From NCBI GenBank assembly GCA_011033025.1, contig WFMF01000162.1, forward strand, positions 124,001 to 188,000: 64,000 bases of DNA, written 5' to 3'. The notes beneath the pieces were generated by a model, which saw only the letters and a list, made by a program, of their open reading frames with translations, ran no database searches and had not been told where the DNA came from. A program made the translations under genes and the position numbers. The stretch's first letter is position 1; the number at the start of each line of letters is the position of its first letter. The stretch is from Beroe forskalii (Eukaryota > Ctenophora > Nuda > Beroida > Beroidae). This document shows, one piece after another, positions 23,701 through 59,152 of this stretch.

Positions 23701-26700
23701 CTATGCTATCACGAACAAGTTCCCGCTGAGATTCCATCCACTTTAAAACGTTACCTCTTCTACTGTTGCAGTTTAATTTTCATTTTGAAGCACTTTACAA
23801 ATTAATTCGTTTATTGTATGTCCATCGCAAAATGATGCGAATTAAGCATATTAATGATAATCTCTATAACTGTTGATAATAATTGTCTGATAAATCCCTC
23901 ATTTTATGTTTTAAACATGAAAAGAGTTGGACTATGATCCTGTCTACTTCTGAGATTTAAATGAAGAAGTCGCGCTCGTATAATGTGCGGACTAAGAATG
24001 TCGTCATCATCACGGTCCAGGGTAATAAGTTGATGACGAATGTCCACGTATCCCTCGTGTGTGCGGCGTATGCCCGCCTCATGCGATCAGCGGAAAAACT
24101 TAATAAGCCGCCGAGCTCTTTGACTTGGTGTGTCTAGGACTGTAAAAGATCGCTGTTCGACTCATGTCATGTGCCGTATTCGGGTCCTAATAAACCGTTG
24201 GGTACCCAGCTTGGCTTTGTTTAGCTTCCTTTCCATCATTCGCCTTCTTTGAGAATTTTCGTTTCATCACAAAAGCAAAAAACGCCCCGTAAGTTTTTCT
24301 CCGTTTTTCTTACGTCATCCCTTTTGATTAGCACACTAGATTTAAGGTTTATAAGTTTAAATTTAGACTTGGCTCCACACACTTGAGCGTATGCTAAGTA
24401 GTAAATATAGTAGTTAGTTACTGCTCGGCAGTTCCGCTGCTAAATTGCTGATAATTACCCGCAAAGCCATCATTCTATCATTCCGCGGTATTAGTAATCA
24501 TACAAATCCTGTATTGATCTACGCTAGGTACTATACCATTGTTTGTTTCATACTGATCTTGATTCACTCTACATTCATATGAGGGTCCCATTTACTTCTT
24601 TTTCAACTGTCACTTGTGGGATGCTGTACAGGAGATTTCTCTTTTCAAAACTTAATTTCAGCGTAAATTTACTTAGAAACTAATTCAAATGTAGAGTTTG
24701 GATGAAGCCATGAATATAGATGCGTAATTGAGTCAATTTAGGTGATAAGATGGTTCCAAGCAATACCATAAGCAATGCAATAAGATGGGCAATGGTAAGC
24801 AGGTACCATCTAATCAGTATAACGTTATCTGTTGTGCTGTACCCGAATACCCAATTTAGCAATATATTTTACTGCCCATGGACTTACGACTTACATTATC
24901 ACTTTAATGCAAGACGCTCGCGTTAAATATCAAATTTGAGGTGGCATACCTATATTTGTATATTGTGTAAACTCGACGGTTTGGATTAGTACGTACATTG
25001 ATTGAGTTAACTAACCCTCGAGCTGAGCCTTGTGTACTGTGTAGAGGTTAAATTCCCTTGAGAAAGTGTGAATTCACGCTCAATGAGTGAATTCACGCTA
25101 AAATTTGTGAATAACCGCTATAATGCGTGAATTTCTGCTTCAATGCGTGCATTCGCGCTTCAATGCGTGAATTCCCGCTGAAATGCATTAATTCCCGCTT
25201 CAATGCGTGAATTCCTGCTAAAATGCGTGAATTTCCGTTGAAATGCGTGAATTTCTGTTAAAATGCGTGAATTCCCGCTACATGATCCCGTCGTCTACGA
25301 AATACAGTACTATAAGGTGTCGTGGGGCAGTCGGTAGATGACTCTGACAAGAACCTCCAGTAATCATACAATTTAAGAATTGTGGGTTTTCCTTTTGCTG
25401 AAATCACGTCTCCTCCTTTCTCATGTTTTCCGTGCAGAGACCACCTCGTGGTATTGTGCTCCCCAGCTCTGAGCACAGAGACCACCTCGTGGCATTGTGC
25501 TCCCCAGCTCTGAGCACAGAGACCACCTCGTGGCATTGTGCTCCCCAGCTCTGAGCACAGAGACCACCTCGTGGCATTGTGCTCCCCCCCACAGACCACC
25601 TCGTGGTATTGTGCTCCCACAGAGACCACCTCGTGGTATTGTGCTCCCCAGCTCTGAGCACAGAGACCACCTCGTGGCCTTGTGCTCCCCAGCTCTGAGC
25701 ACAGAGACCACCTCGTGGCATTGTGCTCCCCAGCTCTGAGCACAGAGACCATCTCGTGGCATTGTGCTCCCCAGCTCTGAGCACAGAGACCACCTCGTGG
25801 TATTGTGCTCCCCAGCTCTGAGCACAGAGACCACCTCGTGGCATTGTGCTCCCCAGCAGTGAGCACAGAGACCACCTCGTGGCATTGTGCTCCCCAGCTC
25901 TGAGCACAGAGACCACCTCGTGGTATTGTGCTCCCCAGCTCTGAGCACAGAGACCACCTCGTGGTATTGTGCTCCCACAGAGACCACCTCGTGGTATTGT
26001 GCTCCCACAGAGACCACCTCGTGGTATTGTGCTCCCCAGCTCTGAGCACAGAGACCACCTCGTGGTATTGTGCTCCCCAGCTCTGAGCACAGAGACCACC
26101 TCGTGGCATTGAGCTCCCCAGCTCTGAGCACAGAGAACACCTCGTGGTATTGTGCTCCCCAGCTCTGAGCACAGAGACCACCTCGTGGTATTGTGCTCCC
26201 ACAGAGACCACCTCGTGGTATTGTGCTCCCACAGAGACCACCTCGTGGTATTGTGCTCCCCAGCTCTGAGCACAGAGACCACCTCGTGGTATTGTGCTCC
26301 CCAGCTCTGAGCACAGAGACCACCTCGTGGCATTGAGCTCCCCAGCTCTGAGCACAGAGACCACCTCGTGGCATTGTGCTCCCAGCAGTGAGCACAGAGA
26401 CCACCTCGTGGCATTGTGCTCCCCAGCTCTGAGCACAGAGACCACCTCGTGGTATTGTGCTCCCCAGCTCTGAGCACAGAGACCACCTCGTGGTATTGTG
26501 CTCCCCAGCTCTGAGCACAGAGACCACCTCGTGGCATTGAGCTCCCCAGCTCTGAGCACAGAGACCACCTCGTGGTATTGTGCTCCCCAGCAGTGAGTAC
26601 AGAGACCACCTCGTGGTATTGTGCTCCCCAGCTCTGAGCACAGAGACCACCTCGTGGCATTGTGCTCCCCAGCTCTGAGCACAGAGACCACCTCGTGGTA

Positions 26701-29700
26701 TTGTGCTCCCCAGCTCTGAGCACAGAGACCATCTCGTGGTATTGTGCTCCCCAGCTCTGAGCACAGAGACCACCTCGTGGTATTGTGCTCCCCAGCTCTG
26801 AGCACAGAGACCACCTCGTGGCCTTGTGCTCCCCAGCTCTGAGCACAGAGACCACCTCGTGGCATTGAGCTCCCCAGCTCTGAGCACAGAGACCACCTCG
26901 TGGTATTGTGCTCCCCAGCTCTGAGCACAGAGACCACCTCGTGGTATTGTGCTCCCAAGCAGTGAGTACAGAGACCACCTCGTGGCCTTGTGCTCCCCAG
27001 CTCTGAGCACAGAGACCACCTCGTGGCATTGTGCTCCCCAGCTCTGAGCACAGACACCACCTCGTGGTATTGTGCTCTCCAGCAGTGAGCATGTTCTTGG
27101 TAGGTGTGCTGAGGAGTCTCCTCAGAAGAAGACGTGTTGGAGGGACTGACAATGACAATAATTACACTCAATAAAAACGTATACATCAACACTGCAGACT
27201 ACACTGATGCTCTGACGACCACCTAATTGATAAAATTAATGTGGCATTGGCACCGGCTACCAATCATGAGCTGCAAATGTTAGTGCACAATGAGAAGCAC
27301 GTAGGCCATTTATCAAAATCGCATTTTAAGGTATGCCAATAGGCACTTAAATGCCTCGAATAAATAAAATACATGGGTATATTACGCTTTTATATAGAAA
27401 AACTTAAGTGAACGGGCCCGGCCGCTCTACCTAAACTCTTACATATCTTAGCAACCACATGCCTGGTATTGCAGTAGAGTTAGCATGTTCTATAGCAATT
27501 TCCTACAGCATTAGCCTGCAAATTAGGCACTGTGCTACTCTTCAAAATAGGGCGTAAGTCATTGGTATAGCGTACTGTTATACGCCGGTGAAAACCTCCT
27601 CTCTCCCCTCACCTAACAACGAAGTCCTAATATGGTGAATAATCTGGTTACCGAGGTGCTCTAGCAACAACACACACACGAGATAGAGGACCCGAGGGTA
27701 CGTTCACGTCAGGAAAATAAGCAAGTACATTTATCATACGGAGTAGGAGTAGTAGGTAGTAGCAGGCTCTCTTTACCTCTAAACTACCTGCCAATTCATT
27801 AGCAATAAGCTGGCCAGCTGGCGTCGTGATAAGGCAAGGCTGGAGCAGGGGAAGCGCAGGTTACATCAGTTATGTCCATGGTAACAAGTTAAGAGATCTG
27901 CGTTGAGTTGTGCCGGGGGCGGGTGGTTGGGGTGTCCCTCATTCTGCATACACTCGCTGGGGATGAGGAGAGGGATGAGACCCATGACCCACCCCTCCTA
28001 CACTCCCCCAGAGAGAGAGGGGAGCTGGGCAGCTGATGGGCGTGTGTGTGGGAACTAATGAAAACACAGGAGTCACGTGTCCCGGGAGAGAGGTCACGTG
28101 CTGGAGAGGTTAGTACTAGGGATCCCACACATACACACTCCTAGAGATCTGTGTGTGTCTGTGTGTGTGTGAGGGAGTAAGCTACCTACTACTGAGGGAG
28201 GAGGGAGGTAGCAAGAGTCAGTGAGTGAGAGAGAGAGCGGCCAGCCTCTCTCTCACTTTATATGTCATTGTACTTTTCCTGCTAGCCTCCTCCTCCTCCT
28301 CTTCTTCTCTTCTTCTCTTCTTGTGTATCATTATATATCTTTGCAAGGTGGACGAAACGTGTGTTTCCCGTGTGTGAGACTTTTCTTATTGTCTTGTTTA
28401 CTTTCATTGATAATGGACTCGACGCTATTATTTTTAATTAAACTAGTTGCACTTGTATTTGTTTCTTAGCTCATTCTATGAAGGTACTCCATCATCTTAG
28501 ATGGTACCTCTTAGTTGGTAGGCACAGACCTCCGCGATAACGAATGATGATTGATCTAGGAGCTGTTTCAGCATGTCTATTATCAAAGATACCATTAAGG
28601 CTTGTCAGGTATTTCGTTGTAGCTTGTAGGTACCTAGAGAAGTAGGCCTTACTTCTGCAGTATGCTCAGTATAAATTGTGTACTTACTTTCACTTGCTTC
28701 TTTACTTGTCTGCTCAACTACTTGCTTCTGTTTTAATTACTTCTTTACTTGTCTCCCCAACGCCTTGGTTCTGTTTTACTCACTTGTATGCTCAACTATT
28801 TGCTTCTGTCTTGTTGCACTCTGTTGTTTTGTACCTATAGCTTGAATATTTGAATCTTTGAATGAGGGGACGCACGTGGCTTTGCCTCACGTGCTGCGCA
28901 TCAAATTCCTGTGAATCCATGATTAGGACAATACACGGTACAGAATTCCAATGAATCCGCCTGTTTCACAATGCTGTCACAATGTGATCCATGCTCTCCT
29001 CACCATAATGTGAGATACATAATATGACCCCATGTACATGACGTTCAGTGTTATATCATCACGGAAAAGAGAGGAGGGAGTGAGAGAAGGAGACATTCTG
29101 ATGATGGACCAAATTAACAGTAATAAGAACTTGTCGTTATTATTCATCAATGTAATATATATGCTGTTTGTCATTTGAATCTTCTCCTCGCATGTCTATT
29201 CTCGTTGCGAGGTGCCGTGTTAATTATTTATGCAGTACCAATATATAATAAGCTTTGGTAAATTTAAATAATTTAAATATTAATGTTGATACCTCTCTAG
29301 TCACGAACTTCTGCAGGGTGCCGTGTATAATGGAACTTAGGCTCTCAACAATAGAACAATAAAGCTGATCTTATAAATATTAATGTGGCATACATAGGCG
29401 TTTATCTTAATTAATTTGCTACTTTATGATCTTAATTCGCCACATAATTCAGTTCCCCTTAGTGCTGTCTGTTCTTTTATCAGATAATGTCTGATTATCT
29501 CGTTTTGCACCCCTCAACGCAACATCGCCTCCATTATGCCCTTTCCGACTTAGCAAATAGCTATAGATATGTCTCTTATCATTGCGTTCATTTGCCTTGT
29601 AAAGTTGTAACCTTTCCTTGCTTGTAGAGACAGCCCTTCTAAAGTTCTTACTTCTCCTACCAGCCTTTCCTGCTGGCTGTCAGACTAACGGACATTGTTA

Positions 29701-32700: not shown

Positions 32701-35700
32701 ATTCTTTATCATCCAGTGTCCAAATGAAGCCACCTTGAAGTTTGAACTTCTTGTACCTAAACTTACAAGAAACGCTGCCTCCCTGCGGAGATTCCTCATG
32801 AAATTAGCTTTAAATTTACCTCCGCTACAATTTGAAAATGGGCACACGTTCCCCGACTTGTACTCGTTAATCCGTCTGAACCAATTTGGGTATAATAGAC
32901 CTCCGTCTACTTTGATGTAATTGTAATTATTAACCTCTCCCCAATTTGACTCAAAGTACCTTCTCTAGTATTACAATAGGAAATTAAGGATGTAACAATG
33001 ATCTTGATATAATGACTCCCAGGTCTCACGTCTCATCTATATTATGTACATCTTGATGTGTCTCAATCTTTCCAATCACTCTCTCTTTCTGAAACATGGC
33101 GTGCAGGTACTTATGACTCTGCTCACATTTTTGCTTGTAGTTTGTGGAGGTAGGAGGGAAGAAGGAAGTCTGGGCACGTGAGAGCACGTGCACGCCTCTC
33201 ACCTCGAGACAATGATCTCCCCTCCGTAACCTCCGCTCTTTACTCAAGTTGCAATTCTGCTGCTCCCGGCCCTCCTAATCCCCCTCCTCCTCCTCTTCCA
33301 CTAGCCCCTGCGATATTATGTGTTTTTGTGTGTGGGAATATTCCTCAAAAAAGCCCACCAACCCGTGCATTTAGTACACTGCTCTTAATGTTGCTAGTCT
33401 TAGTGTCTGGTTTTTCTTTGCATAAAAATGTCTTTTTTCATTCCAATTTCATTCACTTCAAAAGAGAACTTTCACTTTTGTCTGAATTGTCGTTTTTCTG
33501 GTACCGGCTCGTTTTTTAACCTCTTTCATTAATTCCGAATGCATCACAATTTTTCGAGACGGGAAAGATAATTTTTAAGGATTATACCCCTGCTTTTCAA
33601 TAATCATACATGCATCTCCCTTAAGTTCAGAATCTTGCCGTTTCAAGACAATATAATATGAACCCCGAAGTGTTGCAATGCTCACGGCTCAGCCGTCACA
33701 TGAATCGTGAGTTCAATAACCACTAAAATCTTAAAATGAATGAATAATCACGCCATATTTGGTCCTCCAGTAAAAGCCTCCTCCTTTCCCATAGGAGCCA
33801 CTTCATGTTATAAATAGTGTTTCTGTTCATTTCGTGACTTCTTAGACCTCGAGGGATCGAGGTCCGCACCTTGTTGTGTGGAAAGAGCTATTGAAGTGAT
33901 CGAGCAAGGAGCAATCACTTGTCACATGTAGAATTACATTAGATCGTCTGCTGTTAATGCTCTGTAAACTGTTAATCAAGGTGTTAGACCCTATATTTTA
34001 GGATTAAAGAATGGCGATAATTTGATCCCAATATTGTATTTATCACTAGCTGTTAAATCATGCGCGTTAATTAGTCGAATTAAAGGAACTTGTCAGCTGA
34101 ACTTTCCGTGGTTCAGTGATCACGTCTACTAATAATAATATGTGAATGAGTTTAATAAGCAGGAACTGTCTTCAAATAAGAGCTGTTCTGAGCGGGGGGG
34201 TCGAGAAATAAAAACTGTTGTAGCAATCGATGTTTTTGATCAACATCGATGTACTCTTGCGTTGCTTACAGCAATGGAGTTTATTGTAGGCAGCTGTCAT
34301 TTACTTGAGGGGACTTAGAAAAAATCCAGCTTTTTCTTGGTGGAGGCAGACCATTTTCCAGCTTATAAAGCTTCATTTTTTGGTAATGAGAGCTGGGTAC
34401 CTACCGGGTAACAGGATAGAATAACGCAGGATGGCATTATTGGGAGTAGGGTGCAGTGTGTAGAGTATAACATCAGCATACACACTTATATTAATTATTA
34501 GGGGTTGCTGAAGTCAGGATCTATGATTCTAGCAAGATTTCAGTTTTCATGCATGAGAGCAGGATTAGAATATGGAGTAAGATTCTAAGATTGCATTGAT
34601 ATGGGCGAGTGAAGGTTAGATGGAGCACGATTTCATTGCCGATGGGCGAATTTCAATCGGAGAGGATTTCTTTGCGGGTGGCAACTGATGACATGGTTTT
34701 ATCAAACAGTATTTTGTAGTAGAAGGGCTAGTGAAGGAGGGGTTAACAGGAGCAGTATTCCCTTGCTGAAGGGCTAGTGAAGGTAGGGTTAAGCAGGATT
34801 TTATTGCAGGAGATTGAGGGCTAATGACTTGGGAGCAGACCCTCCTTCCTCTGGCTCATGACTTGGTACAAACTCAATCGAGCATATCGCTACCGGTATC
34901 CTTACTGCGCCATTCATAGAGCATTCACTATGAAATGATACTGTTATTAGACCACAAAATACCCGATAATAAGCATAATGAGCATAAGTAGCCTGACCGG
35001 GATTTATCATGTATTTATAGGTAATCATCAATAAATAAAGATGATAAGTAGTTTAATATAGATCACCAGATTCAATGTCCAGCATAAGCTCATATTATTC
35101 TGGCGTTCTGTTTGATGAATTCGTCAGTTCGTACTTTCTTGTTCAGATGCGTCCACACACATGATACCTACTACACACATACTTACATACTTACTTACAA
35201 ACATTACATTACACACAAACTTACACTCATGCATTAAAATACATTGTACTTACATAGTACATAATACATGCATACATACATACGTACTTACATAGTACAT
35301 AATACATGCATACATACGTAATAAATGAATAAATGTACGTACACACATAGTAAAGTACTTACATACTTACCTTTTACTTACTATTTTTTACATACTGATA
35401 CATAGTATGTATGTGTACAGTGTATCTTTATCCGATGTATATGTATGTATTTCACTACTCCTAACATGTATAAACATACCTACGCACATACACACGTCCT
35501 GCACTTTGTAGTACAGATAAGGCCTGCACTTCGCTCGCTTATGGTGGGGGTAATAGGGTTAACTAATGCTGAGATACTCGGCAAGAGTTTGCCAGAGCAC
35601 CGCGTAACTTGGCTAATAGTATGTTCATGGGCGCCGTTTCTCCGACACGTGCTGCACCCCTTATCCCTAGCCGGTACGTGTGTATGTGTGTAGGATTTGG

Positions 35701-43261: not shown

Positions 43262-46200
43262 CTGAATGTACTGAGCAGTCTGAGGGCTATTACATGTACT
43301 TTAAATCATCATACGAGCATCTGATATCGTACTCAGCTCTTCATCAAAATATGCATGTGTGGATTATGATAATCTGATCGCAAATCTATCACATATATAG
43401 TCATTTTTGTCTGAGACTGAGAGTGCTGCAATATTTGTTGTTGCTAATGCTTACTGTTAGTGCTGGTTATTGCCATTTAACTATCATAATTATCAATAAA
43501 CCTGTCTGCCCTATCTCATTTATTTGTGTTCCTGATCTATGGAAATTGACATGTAGACATTATGCCATCCGTCTAATTTCTAGGTTATCTTGTTAAACTC
43601 GGACATCAAACGAATAAATTTTCTACAATTTTGCATCAGAAATCTGTCGCCGGTGCCCACCCGTTTTGTCGATTTAATCAAAACATATTTAACAGATAAA
43701 ATTAGCTCGCAGCTTGTTTTAACACACGCACACATGCCATGCACTTTATCAGACGTGTTATTATTAAGAGGACCATATTATTTTCTAAATCTGGCACAAC
43801 TCCTCCAGTGTATTTTAAAACAGCAGCTGGTTTTTAACATATGCTACCCATCATGCTATGGTTTAAAGCTGCTGTAGGAATATACAAAGGTCGGTTTAAA
43901 CGTAGCGTGCCTTGAAAGGGAATGACTTTTGTCAAACGCAGCTCCCATAAGTTCTTGCATCCTGACAGGATAAATAATGAAGGAAGATGCTATGCGCCCT
44001 AAAAATGCCTTTCCATACACGTGATCCAAGCTTTTATCAATCCAGATATTATTCCTTTAAAATGGAAACAAAAATCTGCCTATGTCGCCCATACAGGGCT
44101 TCAATAAATTCTAAATGTTTCTTTGATAGTGACGGACATAATTATTAGGCTTTCCATTATCGGTAACAAATTTTTTATCTAGATAAACCGATAATTATTT
44201 CGGTTTTATCTAGATAAAATTTTTATCTAGATAAAATCTATCAGTTTTTAAGAACTTTTTTGCCACTGTCAATCTGGTTACTTTCGCTAAATATACGTCA
44301 GTTTGGTATCATGGTGATTGTTGATACACCCGACTGGCGTTAGTGAAAAGTGAGACTGTTGTTGGTGATAACACTACGTCTGAAAATTGTCAATGATACG
44401 TAATAGTGGTGCCGAAGGCGCCGCCTTCGGCACCACTATTACGTATCATTGACAAGGCGCTTCCTATTGGTTTCAGAGTTCATTCAGGTTGATATCATTG
44501 ATTTGTCAGTGTTAGACTGATGCCATTAATCCGTCACAACGGTATTAGGAATACTATACAGCAGACTAGGTCAGAGATGCGTCCAAAAGGTATCAATCAT
44601 GCATCAGATTGGTGTCAGTGATACGTCAGACGGGTGTCAGTGATACGGCAGACTGGTGTCAGTGATACGGCAGACTGGTGTCAGCGATAAGTCAGACTGG
44701 TGTCAGTGATACGGCAGACTGGTGTCAGTGATAAGTAAGGTAGTAAGACTGGTGTCAGTGATACGGCAGATTGGTGTCAGTGATAGGGCAGACTGGTATC
44801 AGTGATATTGATTAGGCAGACAGGTGTCAGTGATACGGCAGACTGGTGTCAGTGATGGGTCAGACTTGTGTCAGTGATACGGCAGATTTGTGTCAGTGAT
44901 ACGGCAGACTGGTGTCATTGATAAGTCATACTGGTGTCAGTTATACGGCAGACTGGTGTCAGTGATACGGCAGACTGATGTCAGCGATACGACAGATTGT
45001 TGATAAGGCAGACTGGTGTCAGTGCCAGTGATACAGCAGACTGGTGTCAGTGATACGACAGACTGGTGTCAGTGATACGACAGACTGGTGTCAGCGATAC
45101 GGCAGACAGGTGTCAGTGATACGGAAGACTGGTGTCAGTGATACGGCAGACTGGTGTCAGTGATACGGCAGACTGGTGTCAGTGATACGGCAGACTGTTG
45201 TCTATCGATGATGGACCCTTCCGAGCGACGCGCCGCGCACCGAGCTGACGCAGCCGCTTCGCGTCTGCATCAGGAGGTCTGGTATCACCAGGCAAGGCAG
45301 ACTGGTGTCAGTGATACGACAGACTGGTTTCAGTCATATAGCAGATTGTTAGTGTCAGTAATATGTGATACGTCTTGCCAGTTTCAATGTTAAATATCTG
45401 ACTCGTGTCTGTGACACGTCAGAAAAGTGTCACTGGTGCCAGATTTGTGTCGGTATCCGTTATCCACTTAACAAGACGTGTCAGTTATACATCAGGATAG
45501 TTTCAACTATACATCAAATAGGTGTCTTAAGTATGTCGGACTGGTGTTGGTGATTGGTCAGAAAGGTACCAGTGACATGCTAGACTGGTGGTAGTGATCC
45601 GTCAGACTGGTGAAACCAGTCCGAAAGTGAGAGTTTTTTATGGATTTTCTCAATTTAACTAGCATTTTCAACGCAAGCTTTTTTGCTATTTTATCTAGAT
45701 AAAAATGATTTTTATCTAGATAAACCGATAATTTATTTTGACGAATTATCGGAGATAATTATCGGTTTCGATTATCGGACTGGAAAGCCTAATAATTATG
45801 TGCTATAAGTATGCAGGTATGGGAATGAAAACTCTGAATTAGCTTCAACAGAGTAGGGCTTTATTCCCCGTAAAAGACATAACAAAGTTTTTGTGAAAAA
45901 TGAAGTTTTTGTTAATGTTATATCAGAGAAGTGATGAATCTAAGGCCATAGTCCTCATGGATGAGATAGGTATTGGTAATCGAGACCGGCACTAAATCAC
46001 ACTAAATAACATTCGTGTACCTATTCTCTCAGATCATATAATTTCGAAAGGCCTTGGGTTCATTACTGTCAATCGTAAATTACTAACCTCCTCTGTTTTC
46101 TCCGGATCCATGCCATCATCTCTTATTTCCTTGACGCAACACAGGTCGCCACCCTCTCCCGAGGTGACCATGACAGGTTTTATCTCACTGAAGATCTTGT

Positions 46201-49200
46201 TGAAGTTCTCTTCCCTGTTCTTCAGCTCGAGTCTGTATTTCTGTACTTCTCGTTTTAGAGACTCCACCTCACTGTCCCTGCTTCCCTCTTTATGTGACTT
46301 CCTCTGTGGAGAAATAGAATGTGATAACCATGGATAATTAGGATCCAATCAGCGAGTGCGATTAGAATCCAATCAGTGAGTGCGATTGGAATCCAATCAG
46401 CGAGTTTGATTAGAAATAGAATCCAATTAACGAGTGTGATTTGATTGCAATTCATGCAATTGCATCTTTGGACCCAATACGAGAATATCACTAGCCGTGA
46501 ATTCTCATCAACATGAACATGTTCCATGCAAGTGATTGATAATCGTGCAACTGCAAATGATTGATAATGCAATATGCATGCATTTGAATTTTGATTTCAA
46601 TTTAAAGGATATCTCAATCTGGACTTTTTTAAGTTTTTAACTTTTAATTGAAATCAGGCATGCAGCAAGGTTTTCACATGCAGGATGAGATGCAATAGGA
46701 TTAGAATTTTAGCTTTCGGGAAATTTCCCATCATCTTCCAATTCGATCTTCAATAATGATGAGATTAATTCAACATAAGATGAACTTGGAGTCATGCAAC
46801 ATTGCCTACCTTACAATATACTGATAGGCCATGTTACCTGACACAAGCGAGTGTTACCCGCCACCACTCGACTTAAGACCTCCCTTCTTCGCTTCCTTGG
46901 CCTGCCCTGCTTTACAACCGTTAACAACGAAATGTGGAAAGCTTTCTGCATCTCACAACGTGAGTGCTATTATATGGAGGGAATATCACTGACAGACCAT
47001 CTCCTGCTTCACAGTTACAATTTTACAATATACTTTATTCCGTGGCTATGTATTTACCGATGAAGATTTCGCTTTAGACCCTGTTGACGAAGGCCCTCCG
47101 TTGGGTATGATTCCAGCTTCAAGCTTCTTGAGTTGTGAAGCCTGGTCGGATACCTTCTTTTTCAGGTTCTTGTTCTCTGACTCCAGATGTTCGTTTTGTA
47201 TCTTCAGCTGGTCTGCTATCTCGTTAGCTGACCGAGCACTTGCTTCCATCTGTGTGATCTTCTGATTCACTCCCCTCTGGATGCCTGAGATTTACAAAGA
47301 TGTGGAGTGATGTTCCAAATACATCTTTGCTTGATGCCATTCATAATACTAATGATATTGATTCACCTTTTGGAACTTTCCAAATCACCATTTCTTGACA
47401 CTTACTGTGAATGTTGTCCTTCATTTTGTCCATCATTTCTTTGTTAGCTCTTGCGTTCTGCTGCAGTTTCTCGATCCGTTGCTGGTCCTTCTCCATAGCC
47501 CGCTCTTTGGCCACTCTCTCCTTCCCCAAAGCATCCTGCTCCCGCTCCGCCCTCGCTAGTTCTTCGACCAATCTAGGTATTGATCAATTCGATCTTAAAG
47601 CAACAATACCAAAATTCAAAGAGAAGTATCCATCACAATCCAATGTCTTATTCGTAGGATGTTACCCTACCCTCGCGCGCGGCGCAACGTTCCACATTTG
47701 GACGTCACTTTGCAACCTCGCCCGTCAGAAGAAATAGACGGGGCAACGTCCGTCGAATGTCTTATCTATAGAGGTGTATGGGTAAACTACAAACATAACA
47801 AATTACTGCATATCGATTTTCTAATTCAAGGATTGACATGAGAGGCGGAAGAGACTAAACTGTGAATCATCAGCGGTTACCCTACAGTTGTAAGGTCTCC
47901 CTGCCATCTGCGATGTAGGTGTACCATCAGCAGGTGACAAAGGGAAACGGAGGGGTTTCGGCCCACGTACCCCTCACAGCTTACAACTGCAAGGCTGGGC
48001 CACCCAGGACTCCGGATTCCTGAGCAACACAGTTTAGAGGGAAGGGGTAGAAAAAAGAAAGATTTCAGTAGAGGTGAAAGATCAATGATTGCTATAATCG
48101 TGTGGAATATCTTAATATAAAGCTATTAAAACCTGAATTTGAACGTTGAAATAAAAGGGAGGTTGCAGGCATCTGCCTGTCCAGCCCCACATTCAGTCCC
48201 AGGCTAATCATACAGCAAGTTATTTGAGGTCAGCAACAAGCTGCATAACTAACCAGTACAGAATGTGACGAACCTCGCGTGCCAATACCTAATCAAATTG
48301 ATCTAAAATTGTACTGTTATCTAAAATTGCATATTTTTGAAAAACTAAGCTATTCTTATTAAGGCAACGTTTAATAACTATCACCAGTCATCTCCATCAC
48401 AAGTCATTTCACACGTTGAGACGTGATGATGACATGACAGGCACATTGTTCTGAAAATTTATTAGGTTACAACTCACCGTTTGTTGCGTTCTTCCATGAC
48501 TTTTATACTGGATCTCAGAGATTCGTTCTCTGAAGTAAGATCTGATATTTTCTTGGTATGTCTGTCTATAAGTTTCCGCGTGTTTTCATCCCCTTCCCGG
48601 TTCATTTTCTCCAGCTCTGCTTTTCTAACGGATCTCTCAGACTCAATTTCCTTTTTAAGCTGCGATATTCGTTTCTCGAACTCTGCCGAAATGTTGGAGA
48701 TCTCTTGTTCGTATGCTTCTTTTGTTGCCTCCAGTTCTACCTGAATATAGGCAGTTAAGAGCGATTTCATTCACAATAAAATTGCTCCATCCACAATCTC
48801 CCAAGTTTCCTGGATTCACCTCAGAGCTCCCCTACGCTGGGAGACCAGTAGATCCGCCCCCTCTCTCAGTATAAGATGGCGTGAGCCTCTCACCTCTCGT
48901 TCGTGGTTTCTCGTGAAAAGCATGTGCACCACGAGGGTCAGCTCTGCCACCTTCTTGCTTAGTTTGAACTGGAGAGCGGCATCGTTCATCGGCTCTGAAC
49001 ACCCCTGCAACAAACAAGATATATCCTATCAAAATCAGGAAATTAATAGACGTGAGTTAACAAATTAACCAGGAATTGAACAAGAATCATATCTTGTCTT
49101 ATCTCTTATCTTATCTCTCATCTTATCTCTTATCTTATCTCTCATCTTATCTCTTATTTTATCTCTCATCTTATCTCTTATTTTATCTCTTATCTCATCT

Positions 49201-50609
49201 CTTATCTTATCTCTTATCTTATCTCTTATCTTATCTCTTATCTTATCTCTCATCTTATCCCTAATCTTATCTCTTATCTCTCATCTCATATTTTATCTCT
49301 TGTCTCATCTCTTACCTTATCTCTTATCTTATTTCTTATCTTATATCTTATTTTATCTCTTATCTTATATCTTATTTTATCTCTTATCTTATCTTATATC
49401 TTGTCTCTTATCTTATCTCTTATCTTATTTCTTATCTTATCTCTTATCTTATCTCTCATCTTATCTGTTATCTTATGTCTTATCTTATCTCTCATCGTAT
49501 CTCTTATCTTATCTCTTATCTTATCTCTTATCTTATCTCTAATCTTATTCTTATCTCATCTCTTATCTTATCTCTTATCTCTTATCTTATCTCTTATCAT
49601 ATCTCTTATTTCATCTCTTATCTTATCTCTTATCTTGTCTCTTATCTTATCTCTTATCTGATTTCTCATCTTATTTCTTATCTTATTTCTTATCTTATCT
49701 CTTATCTTATCTCTTATCTCTTATCTTATCTCTTACCTTATCTCTTATCTTATCTCTTATCTTATCTCTTATCTTATTTCTTATCTTATCTCTTATCTTA
49801 TCGTTCATCTTATGTATTATCTTATCTCGCATCTTATCTATTATCTCATCTCTTATCTTATCTCTTATCTGATCTCTCGTATTGTCTCTTATTTTATCTC
49901 TCATCTTATTTCTCATCTCTTATTTCATCTCTTATCTTATCTCTTATCTTATCTTTAATCTTATCTCTTATCTTATCTCTCATCTTATCTCTAATCTTAT
50001 CTCTTATCTTTGATCTTGTCTCTTATCTTATTTCTTATCTTATTCCTTATTTTATCTCTTATCTTATATCTTATCTTATCTCTCATCTTATCTCTTATCT
50101 TATCTCTTATCTTATCTCTTATCTTATCTCTTATCTTATCTCTTATCTTATCTCTTATCTTATCTCTTATCTTATCTCTTATCTTATCTCTTATCTTATC
50201 TCTTATCTTATCTCTTATCTTATCTCTTATCTTATCTCTTATCTTATCTCTTATCTTATCTCTTATCTTATCTCTCGTCTTATCTATTATCTCATCTCTT
50301 ATCTTATCTCTTATCTTATCTCTCATAATAAGATAAGATAAGAGATAATATGAGAGATAAGATAAGAGATAATATGAGTCATATTATCTCTTATCTTATC
50401 TCTCATATTATCTCTTATCTCTTATCTTATTTCTTATCTTATCCTTTATTATATCTTGAGCTATAACTCTTGGTGCCTGAAAAACATTTTCTCATATTAT
50501 CTTACAAATCTTGAAATCTGACGCTGATAGTTGTATATACCTTGTAAGCCAAGCTAGACTGCCGGCTTGTGCTGATTGATGAAGGAGCTAGGGAGGTACG
50601 TCGTGACAT
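42842..50609 (-). CDS. FAM184: FAM184-like coiled-coil protein, seven exons, complete
   Basis: Predicted rod-like coiled-coil protein; FAM184 proteins are poorly characterised, so no function is claimed. Exons, 5' to 3': 50541-50609, 48894-49004, 48478-48740, 47406-47572, 47058-47284, 46088-46303, 42842-43261. Phases agree at all six junctions and total 1473 nt (490 aa plus stop). Two blocks point to FAM184: KLSKKVAELTLVVHML near residues 37-52, matching the conserved N-terminal SKK-I-A-Q-L-T-type block, and YRLELKNREENFNKIF at 302-317, matching the conserved C-terminal LEL-x-NRE-x-NFNK block. Between them are long Glu/Lys/Arg heptads. At 490 aa it is less than half the length of the vertebrate proteins (over 1000 aa). 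An AATAAA lies on - at 42811-42816, just past the stop. Convergent with the DMRT gene. Confidence 0.72.
44387..44455. repeat. 69-bp perfect palindrome, 34-nt arms
   Basis: Left arm 44387-44420 (TTGTCAATGATACGTAATAG...) and right arm 44422-44455 are exact reverse complements about one C. The tip GCCGAAGGCGCCGCCTTCGGC is GC-rich, unlike its surroundings. The arm base GTCAATGATACG is one mismatch from the unit of the adjacent tandem array. Confidence 0.95.
44590..45340. repeat. 22-bp tandem array inside the transposon-like element
   Basis: Unit core GGTGTCAGTGATACGGCAG, about 30 copies with increasingly diverged copies out to about 44285 and 45620. Interrupted at 45202-45295 by a GC-rich non-repeat segment (GAGCGACGCGCCGCGCACCG...) that I cannot identify. 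Confidence 0.9.
46088..46303 (-). CDS. FAM184: FAM184-like exon 6: conserved C-terminal block
   Basis: Starts RKSHKEGSRDSEVESLKREV after tccacag and contains YRLELKNREENFNKIF, the strongest family match in the gene. It ends TEE at the donor GAG|gttagt, phase 0. If that donor is skipped the frame runs on to a stop at 46034 (ending NPRPFEII), which would be an alternative, shorter terminus. Confidence 0.75.
46343..46445. repeat. 24-bp repeat upstream of FAM184-like exon 6
   Basis: Unit ATCCAATCAGCGAGTGCGAT plus TAGA, four copies at 46343, 46367, 46391 and, after a 5-base insertion, 46420. It sits about 40 bp from the exon 6 acceptor, so on - it lies where branch point and polypyrimidine signals are expected. 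Confidence 0.88.
47058..47284 (-). CDS. FAM184: FAM184-like exon 5: coiled coil and Gly/Ser linker
   Basis: Reads SIQRGVNQKITQMEASARSA through LKKKVSDQASQLKKLEAG, then a Pro/Gly/Ser-rich end with GSKAKSSS at TCG|gtaaat. The loss of heptads after residue 265 or so suggests a hinge before the C-terminal block. Confidence 0.72.
47406..47572 (-). CDS. FAM184: FAM184-like exon 4: coiled coil
   Basis: The acceptor acctag|att completes the arginine split with exon 3 and reads RLVEELARAEREQDALGKER through MMDKMKDNIH. The exon ends one base into a codon at CACA|gtaagt. Phase 2 in and phase 1 out both fit their neighbours. Confidence 0.72.
48478..48740 (-). CDS. FAM184: FAM184-like exon 3: coiled coil
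   Basis: Begins VELEATKEAYEQEISNISAE after attcag and ends ERNK plus two bases at CG|gtgagt (phase 2). The charged heptads are continuous through KKEIESERSVRKAELEKMNR and resemble the Glu-rich stretch that follows the N-terminal block in FAM184A. Confidence 0.75.
48894..49004 (-). CDS. FAM184: FAM184-like exon 2: conserved N-terminal block
   Basis: Thirty-seven codons (GCSEPMNDAALQFKLSKKVA then ELTLVVHMLFTRNHERE) between gttgcag|ggg and GAG|gtgaga, phase 0 at both ends. This is the block that identifies the family at the N-terminus. Confidence 0.75.
49089..50457. repeat. 12-bp satellite (TATCTCTTATCT) filling FAM184-like intron 1
   Basis: Nearly 1.4 kb of a pyrimidine-rich repeat whose purest part is about 50080-50275, where TATCTCTTATCT repeats without error; further left it is mixed with 5- and 7-bp sub-units. 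Both strands give long Leu/Ser/Ile/Tyr or Arg/Asp/Lys/Ile frames that are artefacts of the repeat. It contains the hairpin described separately. Confidence 0.95.
50336..50420. repeat. Perfect inverted repeat, 42-nt arms, 1-nt spacer
   Basis: Arms 50336-50377 and 50379-50420 are exact reverse complements about a single G at 50378. The left arm is a short segment of the satellite in opposite orientation, so the array reverses for about 50 bp and then resumes. Confidence 0.95.
50541..50609 (-). CDS. FAM184: FAM184-like exon 1 (start)
   Basis: ATG at 50609 opens MSRRTSLAPSSISTSRQSSL, a Ser/Arg-rich tail of 23 codons ending AYK at the donor AAG|gtatat. An in-frame TGA lies seven codons upstream. 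It is placed here because its phase-0 end fits exon 2 and because it is the nearest good ATG-donor pair upstream of the satellite-filled intron; there is no homology support. Confidence 0.55.
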
Positions 50610-52000
50610 GATCAAAGCTGTTGCGAATCACTGTCTTCACTGAAAAATGAGCGTTTTGTTTTCCAAACTACAGCTTTAAAAGCTTTCTGTGGGGGTCTCA
50701 AATACTCTCCCTGCTGTCTGCTACTCTGCTGGTCCTTTGTTACTGTGTACTGCACTCTTCACTACTTCATATACGGCTCAGGAAGCCGCAAGGACTTTAA
50801 TTGGCTGCCATTATTAATTACCTGTCATGCTGTTCCTATTTTATTTTTACAATTTCGGGTCAAAATATATAAGATCGAACATTATTTATTTTGACTAGCT
50901 ATCATGGGTGGACATAATAATGGGTGCCCATGGAACTGGAAGCATATAAGTGAAATGAAATGATAAGTACCAGAAAGTGAAAGTTTGACTGTGAGCCAAA
51001 GTCGAAACCAAAGAATTGAGATCTGAGCATTTCCATTTAAGCAATTACACCGAGGCCGAGGTTTTAATCGAACTGAATTATGCACCGACCTCATTATGGG
51101 CTAAGATAAGGGTCTTTTCAAACACAAGGAAATATCTACGCTTATAAATAAAATCGAAAATCCAATAATCAAAACTCCATAAAAAACCAATCCGATGCTG
51201 GAATGCTTGAAATAAAAATCGTGACTAATCTTTGAAGCTTTTAAAAACTAAACGATGGTCGGAGTGAAGAGGAGCTGCTACTTGATTATGCTCGGCACTT
51301 GTGCAGATTAAAAACCGATTCCGTGATAAACGCATCAAAGTTGAATCTGAATTTTAAAAAGTCGTCAATATTTCGCTATGATCGTAAAGTTTGATACTAT
51401 TAACGTATTAAAAGGCCGTACACTGCTCGAACACTCGCACTCATACACATATTGTACAGAAGAATCGGAGATGTGCATGATTATTTCATGCAACGCACGT
51501 CACCAGCAAATTCAACACATCAACTACAGCAATGAGCACACAGCTGCTGCTATGTTAGACGAACAGGCAACAAGCAAGCTAAATAATTCGTGTATTTACA
51601 AGGATTGTCCAATATCCGGCAACAATTTCTCATGTTTATTAATCAATTTGCACTTGTGACATATAGGCTGCTTAATTTTCGACCTTCAGATGTTTATTTT
51701 CATGCTCATAATGAAGATTCGTGTACTTTACATGAGTAGTCAAGAGCCATGTACATGCTACATATGGATCACGATTCACGTTGTTGTGGCGTAAGGTGGC
51801 TGAGTCCTCTCGGTTCTTTATAATTGCCATCAGCGTCTATAAGGTCCAGATGGCGTCCAACAAATATTGGCAATGGCGTCAATTTGCGCTTTAGAGTCTA
51901 TTTGGAATGGAGTCCAGCTTTTCATTTGGAAATGGACGCCCAGGCCAAATCAGACCTATCGGTATCCTATTAATAGTGATAGTCCCACGGGCTAGGGCTT
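50610..52000. other. 5' flank of the FAM184-like gene; nothing recognised
   Basis: AT-rich, no CpG-rich segment and no E-box/CRE cluster like those at 5.8 and 13.1 kb. An ATTGG and TTAATTGGCTG near 50800 are weak promoter hints. Confidence 0.4.
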
Positions 52001-52207
52001 GGAAAATTATGGCCATGGGTACTTTAGCACAAGACTTGTTACTGTAAGCTCGGCGCAAATTTGCGCTCAGTCACCGCTCATTTGTGTCCAAATGCGCTCT
52101 TTTGCGCTCAATAAAAATTACCCTTTCAAACCTCCAAGATGGCTGGTTGCAAATGAAAGCAAAATTTTGCGCTCATTTGCACCCAGAATCGTTCATTTGC
52201 GCTCAAC

Positions 52208-52263
52208 TTGTCAGACGTTGCATTGTCTGACCCCTTCGCCTTCGGCGGGCGCGCGTCTGACAA
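52208..52263. repeat. 56-bp inverted-repeat element with TTGTCAGACG ends
   Basis: TTGTCAGACG (52208-52217) and CGTCTGACAA (52254-52263) bracket a GC-rich core containing CGCCTTCGGCG. The same CGCCTTCGGC and TTGTCA ends occur in the 69-bp palindrome at 44387-44455, suggesting a common element type. Confidence 0.6.
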
Positions 52264-52742
52264 CGCTCAACTGCGCCCTTTTTGCGCCCATTTTTTGCTC
52301 AGAACGCAAAACAGACTGGAAATTTTCTTACTTTTGTATTTAATTCCACCCATTTGCGCTTAGTAACTCGAAATTGCGCTCATTTAGTCATTTGCACTCT
52401 GACTCATTCTCAATCACAATGCAAACTAGCGCAAATTCTTAGTTCAATTGCGCTTTTCTGTGCGCATTTGATTTTGCGGTCGCATTTGCGATTGCCCCTT
52501 ACATTATGATTAACCCTGGCCCTAAAATCGTGCTTCGCGCTCCGGCTCAGCAGAACTGAGCGCAAATATTTTTGCGCTCATCATAAAAACTAAAGCGCTC
52601 ATCTGCGCTTACTGCGCTCATCTGCGCTTACTGCGCTCATCTGCGCCTTATTGAATTTGATATTTTGCGCGCGAGAGCGCGAAGCCGCGAACAGTCACAC
52701 GTAACATAATACATATGCAGGTATTGGTAAATAATAATATGC

Positions 52743-52799
52743 CCTCATTTGTGCCCTGGGCACAAATGAGGAAAATGGGCACAATGTGCCCATTTTCCT
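52743..52799. repeat. Two back-to-back perfect hairpins sharing an arm base
   Basis: CCTCATTTGTGCCC (52743-52756) pairs with 52758-52771 about one T; AGGAAAATGGGCACA (52769-52783) pairs with 52785-52799 about one A. The two palindromes overlap by three bases (AGG) and share the motif GGGCACA. Confidence 0.92.
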
Positions 52800-53274
52800 G
52801 TGCTGTCTTTGAATTTTGCGTCCATGACATAGGCGCAATTGAGCGCAAAATTTTGCGCCCATTTTGCAACCTGTAGCTGTCATTTGGTTGGTCTCTTATG
52901 TAAACGGAGCCTTCATTATCTCTGAAAATGACGACACTCAGAAAAATATAATTAAGCGCATCTTGATCTAGCGCTTTTTTAATGGTTATGCCTTATGGTT
53001 AGGGTCAGGATTTGTTACTTGTTAGGTTTAGGGTTAGAATAAAAATTAGAGTTTTGGTTAGGTTTAGGCAACAGAAAATTGACCTTTTAAGATCTGTGAC
53101 GTCACTAAGCCCCGTTTACCTGCGAGACATACCTGTCATTTTAAGGGGTATAAACTATAACAATTGAGCCAAAATTCGGCGGGCGTTGCCCGTCTTTTTC
53201 TTCTGGCTGGAGGTTCAAGTTTCAACTTCAAGTCCAAAGGTGTTTCAGTTTTTGCTGCAGTGCGGTTCAAAGTC

Positions 53275-55200
53275 TTGGTCATACAAACGGTACTCCCCCT
53301 GCACCGGGAGACTCCCGAGACCTCCGAAAATACTCCCCCTGAGCACCACGAGAGTACCCCCCCTCCTGGAGCACCACAGTACTCCCCAGTCACAGTACTC
53401 CCCTGGAGCACCACGGTACTCCCCCTGGAGCACCACGGTACTCCCCTTGGAGCACCACGGTACTCCCCTGGAGCACCACGGTACTCCCCTGGAGCACCAC
53501 GGTACTCCCCTGGAGCACCACGGTACTCCCCTGGAGCACCACGGTACTCCCCCCTGGAGCACCACGGTACTCCCCTGGAGCACCACGGTACTCCCCTGGA
53601 GCTCACCACGGTACTCCCCCTGGGCACCACGGTACTCCCCTGGAGCACCACGGTACTCCCCCTGGAGCACCACGGTACTCCCCTGGAGCACCACGGTACT
53701 CCCCCTGGAGCACCACGGTACTCCCCTGGAGCACCACGGTACTCCCCTGGAGCACCACGGTACTTCCCCCTGGAGCACCACGGTACTCCCCTGGAGCACC
53801 ACGGTACTCCCCCCTGGAGCACCACGGTACTCCTCTGGAGCACCACGGTACTCCCCTGGAGCACCACGGTACTCCCCCTGGAGCACCACGGTACTCCCCC
53901 TGGAGCACCACGGTACTCCCCCTGGAGCACCACGGTACTCCCCCTGGAGCACCACGGTACTCCCCTGGAGCACCACAGTACTCCCCCTGGAGCACCACGG
54001 TACTCCCCTGGAGCACCACGGTACTCCCCTGGAGCACCACGGTACTCCCCTGGAGCACCACGGTACTCCCCTGGGCACCACGGTACTCCCCCTGGAGCAC
54101 CACGGTACTCCCCCTGGAGCACCACGGTACTCCCCTGGAGCACCACGGTACTCCCCATGGAGCACCACGGTACTCCCCCTGGAGCACCACGGTACTTCCC
54201 CCAGAGCTCACCACGGTACTCCCCCTGGAGCACCACGGTACTTCCCCCAGAGCTCACCACGGTACTCCCCCTGGAGCACCACGGTACTCCCCCTGGAGCA
54301 CCACGGTACTCCCCCTGGAGCACCACGGTACTCCCCCTGGAGCACCACGGTACTCCCCCTGGAGCACCACGGTTCTCCCCCTGGAGCACCACGGTACTCC
54401 CCTGGAGCACCACGGTGCCTCCCCCCTGAACTCCACGGTACTCCCCTGGAGCACCACGGTACTCCCCTGGAGCACCACGGTACTCCCCTGGGCACCACGG
54501 TACTCCCCTGGAGCACCACGGTACTCCCCTGGAGCACCACGGCTCTCCCCTGGGTACAGTGCTCCCCTGGAGCACCACGGTACTCCCCCTGGAGCACCAC
54601 GGTACTCCCCCTGGAGCACCACGGTACTCCCCCTGGAGCACCACGGTACTCCCCTGGAGCACCACGGTACTCCCCCTGGAGCACCACGGTACTCCCCCTG
54701 GAGCACCACGGTACTCCCCTGGAGCACCACGGTACTCCCCCCTCCCCTGGAGCACCACGGTACTCCCCTGGAGCACCACGGTACTCCCCCTGGAGCACCA
54801 CGGTACTCCCCTGGAGCACCACGGTACTCCCCCTGGAGCACCACGGTACTCCCCTGGAGCACCACGGTACTCCCCTGGAGCACCACGGTACTCCCCTGGA
54901 GCACCACGGTACTCCCCCTGGAGCACCACGGTACTCCCCTGGAGCACCACGGTACTCCCCCTGGAGCACCACGGTACTCCCCCTGGAGCACCACGGTACT
55001 CCCCTGGAGCACCACGGTACTCCCCAGAACACGGTACTCCCCTGGAGCCACGGTGCTCCCCTGGAGCACCACGGTACTCCCCTGGAGCACCACGGTACTC
55101 CCCTGGAGCACCGGTACTCCCCTAGACACCACGGTACTCCCCTGGGCACCACGGTACTCCCCTGGGCACCACAGTCTCCCCTGGAGCACCACGGTACTCC
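53275..55200. repeat. 21/22-bp minisatellite, first block
   Basis: Unit CTCCCCTGGAGCACCACGG plus TA (21 bp), with a frequent extra C making 22 bp. There are occasional shortened units (CCCTGGGCACC). Because 21 bp is seven codons and both lengths mix, all frames carry long repetitive open stretches (WSTTVLP / LEHHGTP on +, EYRGAPG / STVVLQG on -). None begins and ends convincingly as a gene. Confidence 0.95.
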
Positions 55201-55202
55201 CC

Positions 55203-56175
55203 CTGAAAGCATACGGTACTCCCCCTTTGCACCAAGTACTCCCCTGGAGCACCACGGTATTCCCCTCATTTCCACCGTTTCCCTGGGCTCCACTGGACAC
55301 CCCCCTGGAGCACCACGGTACTCCCCTGGAGCACCATGGTACTCCTGAACGCAAACAGACTGGAAATTTTGGGCACCACGGTACTCCCCCATTTGCGCTC
55401 CCCTCCCTCGAAATTGCGCTCATTTGGTCATTTGTACTCCTGAACATTCCACGGTACTCCCCTGGGCATACCAGCGCAAACTCCCCTGGATCAATTGCGG
55501 TTTCCCTGGAACACCACAGTACTTGATTTGGGCACCCACGGTGCTCCATTGGAGCACCACGGTAAAATCGTGCTTCGCGCTCGGCTCAACGAACTGAGCA
55601 CCAAATACTCCCCTGGTGCTGTCGGTACTGAATTTTGACACCACGGTACTCCCTGGAGCGCACACGGTACTCCCCCTGGAGCACCACGGTACTCCCCTGT
55701 CATTTGGTACTCCCCCTGGAGCACCACGGTACTCCCCTGGAGCACCACAATTACTCCCCCTGGAGCACCACGGTACTCCCCTGGAGCACCACGGTACTCC
55801 CCGCTTTTTTACCACAGGTACTCCCTGGGCACTAGGGTCTCCCCGGAGCACCACGGTACTTAGGTTTAGGGTCACGGTACAAAAATTAGAGTTTTCCCCT
55901 GGAGCACCAGAAAAGTACTCCCCATGGGTGACGTCCAGGTTCTCCCCTGGGCACTGCGAGACACTTCCCCATTTTAAGCTCACCAAACTACTCCCCCTGG
56001 AGCACCCACGGTACTCCCCTGGTTGCCCGTCTTTACTTCCCTGGGGGGAGTTCTCCCCTGGAGCACCACGGTACTCCCCTGGAGCACCACGGTACTCCCA
56101 GTGCGGTTCACAGTACTCCCCTGGAGCACCACGGTGCCTTCCCCCTGAGACCTCGAAAATCCCCTGATAGGGAGT
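55203..56175. other. Mosaic of unique left flank interleaved with the 21-bp repeat
   Basis: Short pieces of the single-copy sequence at 52150-53330 reappear here in the same order, broken by pieces of the minisatellite. Examples: GCAAACAGACTGGAAATTTT at 55350 (52305 region), AAATTGCGCTCATTTGGTCA at 55412 (52369 region), AAAATCGTGCTTCGCGCTC at 55564 (52525 region), AAAAATTAGAGTTTT at 55881 (53041 region), GTTGCCCGTCTTTACTTCC at 56023, CAGTGCGGTTCACAGTACT at 56099. The region behaves like a base-by-base consensus of two different sequences. Confidence 0.9.
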
Positions 56176-56179
56176 ACTC

Positions 56180-57635
56180 CCCTGGAGCCCAGGACTCCCC
56201 TGGAGCACCACGGTACTCCCCTGGAGCACCACGGTACTCCACGGTACTCCCCTGGAGCACCACGGTACTCCCCCTGGAGCACCACGGTACTCCCCTGGAG
56301 CACCACGGTACTCCCCTGGAGCACCACGGTACTCCCCCTGGAGCACCACGGTACTCCCCTGGAGCACCACGGTACTCCCCCTGGAGCACCACGGTACTCC
56401 CCTGGAGCACCACGGTACTCCCCTGGAGCACCACGGTACTCCCCTGGAGCACCACGGTACTCCCCTGGAGCACCACGGTACTCCCCCTGGAGCACCACGG
56501 TACTCCCCTGGAGCACCACGGTACTCCCCCTGGAGCACCACGGTACTCCCCCTGGAGCACCACGGTACTCCCCTGGAGCACCACGGTACTCCCCCTGGAG
56601 CACCACGGTACTCCCCCTGGAGCACCACGGTACTCCCCCTGGAGCACCACGGTACTCCCCTGGAGCACCACGGTACTCCCCTGGAGCACCACGGTACTCC
56701 CCTGGAGCACCACAGTACTCCCCTGGAGCACCACGGTACTCCCCCTGGAGCACCACGGTACTCCCCCTGGAGCACCACGGTACTCCCCCTGGAGCACCAC
56801 GGTACTCCCCCTGGAGCACCACGGTACTCCCCCTGGAGCACCACGGTACTCCCCTGGAGCACCACGGTACTCCCCTGGAGCACCATGGTACTCCCCCTGG
56901 AGCACCACGGTACTCCCCTGGAGCACCATGGTACTCCCCCTGGAGCACCACGGTACTCCTCTGGAGCACCACTCCCTGGAGCACTCCCCCTGGAGCACCA
57001 CGGTACTCCCCTGGATCACCACGGTACTCCCCTGGAGCACCACAGTACTCCCCCTGGAGCACCACGGTACTCCCCTGGAGCACCACGGTACTCCCCCTGG
57101 AGCACCACGGTACTCCCCCTGGAGCACCACGGTACTCCCCTGGAGCACCACGGTACTCCCCTGGAGCACCACGGTACTCCCCCTGGAGCACCACGGTACT
57201 CCCCCTGGAGCACCACGGTACTCCCCTGGAGCACCACAGTACTCCCCTGGAGCACCACTCCTCTGAGCACCACGGTACTCCCCCTGGAGCACCACGGTAC
57301 TCCCCCTAGAGCACCACGGTACTCCCCCTAGAGCACCACGGTACTCCCCCTAGAGCACCACGGTACTCCCCCTAGAGCACCACGGTACTCCCCCTGGAGC
57401 ACCACGGTACTCCCCCTGGAGCACCACGGTACTCCCCTGGAGCACCACGGTACTCCCCTGGAGCACCACGGTACTCCCTCTGGAGCACCACGGTACTCCC
57501 CCTGGAGCACCACGGTACTCCCCCTAGAGCACCACGGTACTCCCCTTGGAGCACCACGGTACTCCCCCTGGAGTACCACGGTACTCCCCCTGGAGTACCA
57601 CGGTACTCCCCCTGGAGCACCACGGTACTCCCGTT
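56180..57635. repeat. 21/22-bp minisatellite, second block
   Basis: Same unit as the first block and mostly very pure. From 57300 it carries a variant in which CTGGAGC becomes CTAGAGC in several adjacent copies, a sign of local unit spread. Its right edge to unique DNA (near 57636, CTCCCGTTAGACTCCCG) is clean, with no mosaic. Confidence 0.95.
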
Positions 57636-57639
57636 AGAC

Positions 57640-58630
57640 TCCCGTAGTAATTCGCTTGTATGATCAAAGTTTTGGATCACGTTACCAAGCCACCACTTTT
57701 CAAATGAGTATAGTTTTCTATTTCTTATACAAATAACTAAATCCAATTCCATAGAAAACAGAATAATTGCGAATAAATAATAACATGAAACATTGCATAT
57801 CCATATCAGTTATTTAAAGTAATGTAGGTGACATGCTATTGCTAACAGCTATATTTCATTATGAATTTAATCCCATAAAACTAGACAGTAGACACAAATT
57901 TCAATGTTAAAAATATTTCGCATTTTATATCTAAAAACAAATTAAAATAATTTTTTGGGCAATTATTTCTCGTCAAAGCCTATTTTTCTTACTTCAAATT
58001 TTACTTGTAAATTGGTGCATGGGAATGGAGTAAAATTTTCATGTAATCGACGTCGTATAAAAACTTGCCCAGAAGTCCATTTGATTTTGACATTGAAAAT
58101 GAAATCAGTGTCATGGCGATTTCCTACGCTACCTCCTTACTCTAGTATTTACAAATTCAGTTGATACGAAGACTAATCCATCAATCATAATTATTTATGG
58201 TATAATTTGAAAACAGCCCAATGCTATCGAAACTGAATCCTTTTACACAATTCATTCAAATATATTAATAACTTCATGATTGGAGCACAAAGCGAAATCA
58301 CTATCAGGGTTCTCGTTCTACTTCTACCTGACAGTTCACTTCACTGCTGAATAAAAGGCCAAATTAGGCAACGACAAACAGTTTAACCAGAAAATAACAC
58401 GCTTCGAAGGGACATAAAATATGTGGAAAAATATGTGGAAATTGCGACCTACAAACTCAGCCGGGAACCTAGAGCTTTTAATCAATATGAATATCACTCT
58501 GACACTTGACAGATTCGCCAAAGAATTTTCTGGGTCGTAATTCCTCCAAACTGACCGAATATTTTAATCATAGATTCAGATTATATGTGAGTAAAGTTAA
58601 AATAAATTCAATAAACCTCTATTACGGTTG
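57640..58630. other. AT-rich intergenic segment; nothing recognised
   Basis: Stop-dense in all frames, with no splice-supported exon. Confidence 0.5.
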
Positions 58631-58632
58631 CA

Positions 58633-58757
58633 TGTCGAACTCCTACGTGCGCTGCCTTTTCTTGCGCGGCTCACTGCCTGTCATTAACAGCTTTCAGCCA
58701 GTGAGCCGCGCTCTATCACGCTGCGCATGAAAAAGCCGCGCACGAAAGAGTTCGACA
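58633..58757. mobile_element. 125-bp fold-back element (MITE-like)
   Basis: TGTCGAACTC (58633-58642) and GAGTTCGACA (58748-58757) are inverted ends. The inverted similarity continues inward through CGTGCGC, TTTTTC and TGCGCGGCTCACTG to a centre near 58690, where CACTG...CAGTG closes the hairpin. GC-rich against an AT-rich background, with no matching target duplication that I can see. Confidence 0.72.
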
Positions 58758-58949
58758 CTACACCGTCATGCAACATTCAACACGACATTTGTATCAGTTG
58801 CGCATCAATTAATAATGCATACAAAATATGCATGTTTTAGTCCGTTAATTACACCCCAAAGCTTTGGGGCACATGTCAGAGATATCAAGATATTAACAAT
58901 AATAATGATGATAACTTCGCACAAACATTAACAGCCGCCCTTGTTTTAG

Positions 58950-59152
58950 CTGGAACCAAAGGTCATAGACGTACCAAGACTCAACACATAACATGATTTC
59001 GGTGGTCAGTATGTCAGGAACCACAGGATCATAGACCAACCAAGACTCAACACATTACATGATTTCGGTGGTCAGTATTTCAGGAACCACAGGATCATAG
59101 ACCAACCAAGACTCAACACATTATATGAATTCGGGGGTCAGTATTTCAGGGT
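58950..59152. repeat. 66-bp tandem repeat, about three copies
   Basis: CCAAGACTCAACACATTACA and GATTTCGGTGGTCAGTATTT recur at 66-bp spacing (58975, 59041, 59107) with few changes. Intergenic, about 360 bp downstream of the ZC3H18-like stop. Confidence 0.92.

Follow-up and report, generated by a model that had tools for sequence, protein, structure and literature searches.

Fine mosaics of two sequences have their closest described counterparts in haplotype-mixed long-read consensus, in hypervariable minisatellites (VNTRs) and in template-switch rearrangement (MMBIR/FoSTeS). Haplotype-mixed consensus usually switches between homologous alleles at small variants. MMBIR/FoSTeS rearrangements insert copied segments, and gene conversion requires homology around the converted tract. 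A passage of PMC13273997 speaks of a "haplotype-mixed assembly, a mosaic of both haplomes". Here we describe a mosaic in the Beroe forskalii assembly that is very probably an artefact of consensus building, in which reads of a long and a short allele of a heterozygous minisatellite were merged.

The mosaic interrupts a long tandem array. The window, the 64,000-nt stretch analysed here, spans positions 124001–188000 of contig C206 (373,833 bases), in an assembly of 216 Mb and 1,134 contigs; all features are given in window coordinates on the forward strand unless C206 is named. A unique left flank (52150–53341), here at its true position, is one source of the mosaic. The array follows from approximately 53345 to 55202 with the unit CCTGGAGCACCACGGTACTCC(C), gives way to the mosaic at 55203–56171, and resumes at 56172–57632 for about 1.46 kb, the length we infer for the array of the short allele. 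The right flank occupies 57640–59000. A repeat scan assigned 53365–57632 a period of 21 and 202 copies, in 21/22-nt units running head to tail over kilobases. By unit size (about 10–60 bp) and length, the array at about 53345–57632 is thus a minisatellite (VNTR).

Genome searches suggest a single locus with one assembled allele. As far as a search that skips simple repeats goes (four candidates scored), the minisatellite appears to be a single-locus array, a 1-kb piece of it finding only three matches elsewhere, on other contigs and at 67–71% identity. The right flank was found only here among the best 40 of 481 candidates, except for one dispersed element, and no second full copy of it turned up in the assembly among those 40. 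The best 40 of 1791 candidates likewise held no second full copy of the left flank. The other allele therefore seems to have no separate assembly of its own. Both flanks carry repeats. Most of at least 70 left-flank matches, on dozens of contigs at about 71–89% identity, fall at 52891–53136, part of a dispersed repeat (best 40 of 1791). About 140 bp at 58617–58773 has at least 79 matches on many contigs, several on both strands (best 40 of 481), the strand pattern of a short inverted-repeat element that we label MITE-like.

Pieces of the left flank and of the repeat alternate throughout the mosaic. Between 55203 and 56171 the sequence switches between fragments of 52154–53331 and the 21/22-bp minisatellite on a scale of about 5–25 bp, which bears out the fine alternation of unique flank and 21-bp repeat described in the initial annotation. 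The first flank piece places mosaic position 55204 on flank position 52154, and the last places 56147–56160 on 53317–53331. Many pieces are exact across 8–20 bp; others carry single differences. The left edge is weak, with just two on-diagonal 8-mers in the first 140 bp (55203–55344), and the mosaic does not reach farther left: none of the eight 100-bp steps across 54400–55199 holds an on-diagonal 7-mer. The right flank (57640–58985) gave no signal as a third source (14 words, chain of 6), so that of the two flanks only the left one leaves a ghost in the mosaic.

Word counts and alignments set the mosaic apart from the controls. With array words excluded, 55195–56185 and 52000–53345 have 167 8-mers in common; certain words recur within the flank itself, which places some of these hits off the main diagonal. 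The longest collinear chain comprises 94 words, against a best of 15 among 371 other window segments and of 13 among 500 dinucleotide shuffles of the flank; the reverse complement of the flank gave 11, and the reversed flank and the right flank 6 each. Clean array, sampled at four stretches with array words kept in, reached chains of 12–16. In the first half of the mosaic a narrow diagonal band holds 81 6-mer hits, whereas none of 116 control bands exceeds 10, and on-diagonal 6-mers cover 146 bases, against at most 46. The second half also gave 81 hits, and the best of its 115 control bands reached 23; its coverage margin is narrower than its hit-count margin, at 171 bp against a best control of 133. 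We also aligned the segment jointly to flank and repeat, letting both sources advance together. Among its 969 bases, 312 match both sources, 433 the repeat only, 215 the flank only and 9 neither. Such a flexible joint alignment would suit any flank fairly well, so the evidence lies not in the 960 of 969 bases that equal the flank or repeat base of their own column but in the gap to controls: the score is 832, against at most 745 for 20 shuffles and at most 729 for 13 other window segments.

Flank spacing and repeat register are both preserved through the mosaic. The offset between mosaic and flank on the main diagonal is 3038–3050 for flank positions 52154–52561 and 2816–2841 for 52800–53331. 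It makes a single jump, across about 220 bp of flank, and otherwise varies by no more than 25. The earlier description of flank fragments in their original order, with about 240 bp near 52560–52800 missing, thus holds and can be extended to their spacing; the stretch with no counterpart in the mosaic is about 52567–52799. Two adjacent palindromes, whose minus-strand self-matches reach 97%, occupy the right end of this stretch (52740–52799). The repeat keeps step as well: at 26 of 30 interruptions, the next repeat block begins within 3 nt of its position in an unbroken array, where 10 would be expected at random. This count takes interruptions of at least 4 bases (33 were listed and three shorter ones dropped); some span only 4–8 nt, and a few fall on the mosaic edges or outside them. 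Several hundred repeat bases stand between the flank pieces, yet the offset stays steady, whereas an insertion would have enlarged it by that much. The repeat stretches therefore replace flank bases and were not inserted between them. Flank and repeat advance side by side through shared alignment columns, at constant offset and register except for one jump of about 220 bp, which is how a consensus over two misaligned groups of reads would look.

Template switching predicts a different geometry. Real DNA could have arisen by repeated microhomology-driven (MMBIR/FoSTeS-like) switches between flank and array during replication, and 47 of the 138 switches in the joint alignment do cross bases common to both sources; the other 91 do not. 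Such a process should make the offset grow with each switch, which the two narrow offset ranges contradict. We simulated end-to-end switching with tract lengths that we set at 5–20 and 8–50 bp. All five runs placed only 30–38 of 556–593 flank words in one 40-nt band, whereas the mosaic has 98 of 135 there after removal of the missing stretch. Register was kept at 26–48% of simulated junctions, against 22 of 26 observed, and the products were 3.3–3.6 kb long with no common offset in any of the five runs. We consider this origin exceedingly unlikely.

In-place replacement of real DNA fares no better. Patchwise gene conversion of a duplicated flank from the array would keep the spacing of the flank, but flank and array are unrelated, and each 5–25-bp tract would need to pair independently; we give this reading almost no credence. 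Equally implausible is real DNA produced by an unknown process that swaps 5–25-bp tracts between unrelated parallel sequences while keeping length and register. We know of no mechanism for length-neutral, in-register replacement by non-homologous sequence. The fine-scale conversion that had been held out as the alternative is thus disfavoured, since spacing and register are kept although the sequences are not homologous. The mosaic is not a new recombination process.

Consensus building from mixed reads reproduces the pattern. We drew simulated reads, at error rates of 8% or 12%, from two groups, "flank + array" (without 52567–52799) and "array only", and built partial-order consensus sequences (match 3, mismatch −5, gap −4); the first such trial comprised four runs, and short reads start at 52154 by design. 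The observed mosaic has 23 flank tracts with a median of 9 bp and a maximum of 20, covering 252 bp of flank and 890 bp of repeat. At a ratio of 11:10 (flank + array to array only), all six runs came close to it in tract number, length and coverage, giving 19–32 flank tracts (median 9–11 bp, maximum 17–30), 205–376 bp of flank and 738–890 bp of repeat. Neighbouring ratios departed in both directions. Six runs at 10:10 gave 5–21 flank tracts, and runs at 9:10 gave 2–10, with far less flank than observed; 12:10 gave 29–44 tracts and a flank coverage of 460–598, above the observed value, and 11:9 gave 28–43. Array-only input (0:20) yielded zero flank tracts in both of its runs. In the six partial-order runs at 10:10 and the six at 11:10 taken together, register was kept at 54–95% of junctions, and the observed 22 of 26 sits at the high end of this range. 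Column-majority consensus fitted more poorly over 48 runs: it too yields fragments at near-equal mixes, though with less clean repeat, several equal mixes were nearly flankless, and runs of similar flank coverage held only about 330–430 bp of repeat, against 890 observed.

These simulations point to a heterozygous diploid locus, because only a mix near 1:1 reproduces the pattern at the simulated depth; two individuals or two loci contributing near-equal reads would do as well. On the merged-allele reading, one allele would carry an array of about 4.3 kb and the other one of about 1.46 kb, some 2.8 kb shorter. Short-allele reads would have their anchor on the right, in the flank common to both alleles and the final 1.46 kb of array, and would extend leftwards into their own left flank. 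An assembly or polishing step would then force those flank bases onto the interior of the long-allele array. With the two read groups near equal depth, the consensus path would jump from one to the other at common bases, or wherever sampling noise tips the majority. We infer that the read groups are alleles, as well as the allele lengths and a short allele that lacks 52567–52799.

The skipped flank stretch may reflect a second difference between the alleles. When the simulated short allele was given a complete flank, all four runs put words of 52567–52799 on the diagonal (3, 4, 7 and 3), and all four drifted gradually by about 60–77 bp with no jump, unlike the observed mosaic, in which one word of this stretch (at 52742) occurs and lies far off the diagonal. 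Four runs with 52567–52799 left out of the input show the jump by construction. The short allele may therefore lack 52567–52799. The comparison covers two linear-gap scorings only, and with an aligner that bridges the stretch by one long gap, even an allele that has it could leave no trace of it in the consensus.

The reading of flank and repeat reads merged around a mis-sized array, raised when the mosaic was first noticed, is supported by spacing, register and simulations alike. It had come in two versions. We prefer an allele length difference as the simpler and keep the other, a duplicated [flank + array] unit, as a rival. Here one allele would contain a real second unit, merged with reads from the other allele's array, and the mosaic would still be an artefact. 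Its local pattern would be identical to that of a short allele, and it would account both for the end of the ghost at flank position 52154 and for the clean array to the left. It requires a duplication plus an allele difference, where a short allele requires a length difference alone, and we judge it improbable. Were it true, one allele would really have flank DNA between two arrays. The end of the ghost at 52154 may reflect such a second copy of the flank; under the preferred reading of a short allele, our guesses are alignment clipping or a polishing window.

A search for further mosaics returned one weak flag. After being set up on the window's four arrays that measure 300 bp or more, the scan was run with 4-kb flanks over 264 kb of C206, where 25 arrays reach 250 bp. 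Six of the 25 had at least four tracts, one of them the window array itself. Four of the others (coordinates on C206) have ordinary readings: 8510–9121 reads as its own 22-nt repeat carried on in degenerate form, 33790–34227 is a 219-bp duplication, and 194353–194935 and 197273–197821 form one duplicated pair, 90% identical over 813 bp. The weak flag is 202159–202913, whose sides have no BLAST match at E 1e-5. Nine arrays in 17 loci of about 3 kb each on other contigs were also scanned, and none of the nine reached four tracts. With no second mosaic shown in the 264 kb, the scan does not establish this type of error as a frequent one in the assembly.

Other repeats occur elsewhere in the window and on the contig. 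A stretch of about 0.8 kb that bears an array occurs twice, 2.9 kb apart, at C206:194243–195037 and C206:197152–197962. A 22-nt minisatellite motif, CAGACTGGTGTCAGTGATACG..., is arrayed at 44605–45345 and again about 160 kb away on the same contig, at C206:8100–9300, and seems to be dispersed. At 49092–50443, 1.2 kb of a 12-nt array of TCTTATCTTATC passes into its reverse complement, AGATAAGATAAG, and then into forward units again. A 41-nt minisatellite of 42 copies occupies 25435–27091 and is crossed by long mechanical open reading frames on the minus strand. Pfam searches of seven window open reading frames gave matches for one, all under the curated cut-offs, and Rfam gave no match at gathering threshold.

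The mosaic is ordinary as biology, and its value is that of a recognisable assembly error. It suggests a test that needs no reads: pieces of unique flank inside the neighbouring tandem array, at constant offset and with the repeat register unbroken, would indicate that read groups differing in length were averaged. The same test of offset and register helps to distinguish such artefacts from genuine template-switch rearrangements. In addition, the ghost gives hints of a hidden allele, with an array of about 1.46 kb and possibly a second indel at 52567–52799.

Set against known systems, the locus resembles haplotype-mixed (collapsed) long-read consensus or polishing, which likewise yields a mixture of two haplotypes. 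It differs in that a length difference here would align unrelated sequences in the same columns, which makes the weave visible. Its roughly 200 units of 21/22 nt, arranged head to tail at a single locus, make it similar to a hypervariable minisatellite, although the large difference in allele length is deduced here from the mosaic, with one allele assembled. To MMBIR/FoSTeS products it bears the likeness of several template switches, some at short common sequence, and it is set apart from them by the preserved spacing and register of both templates.
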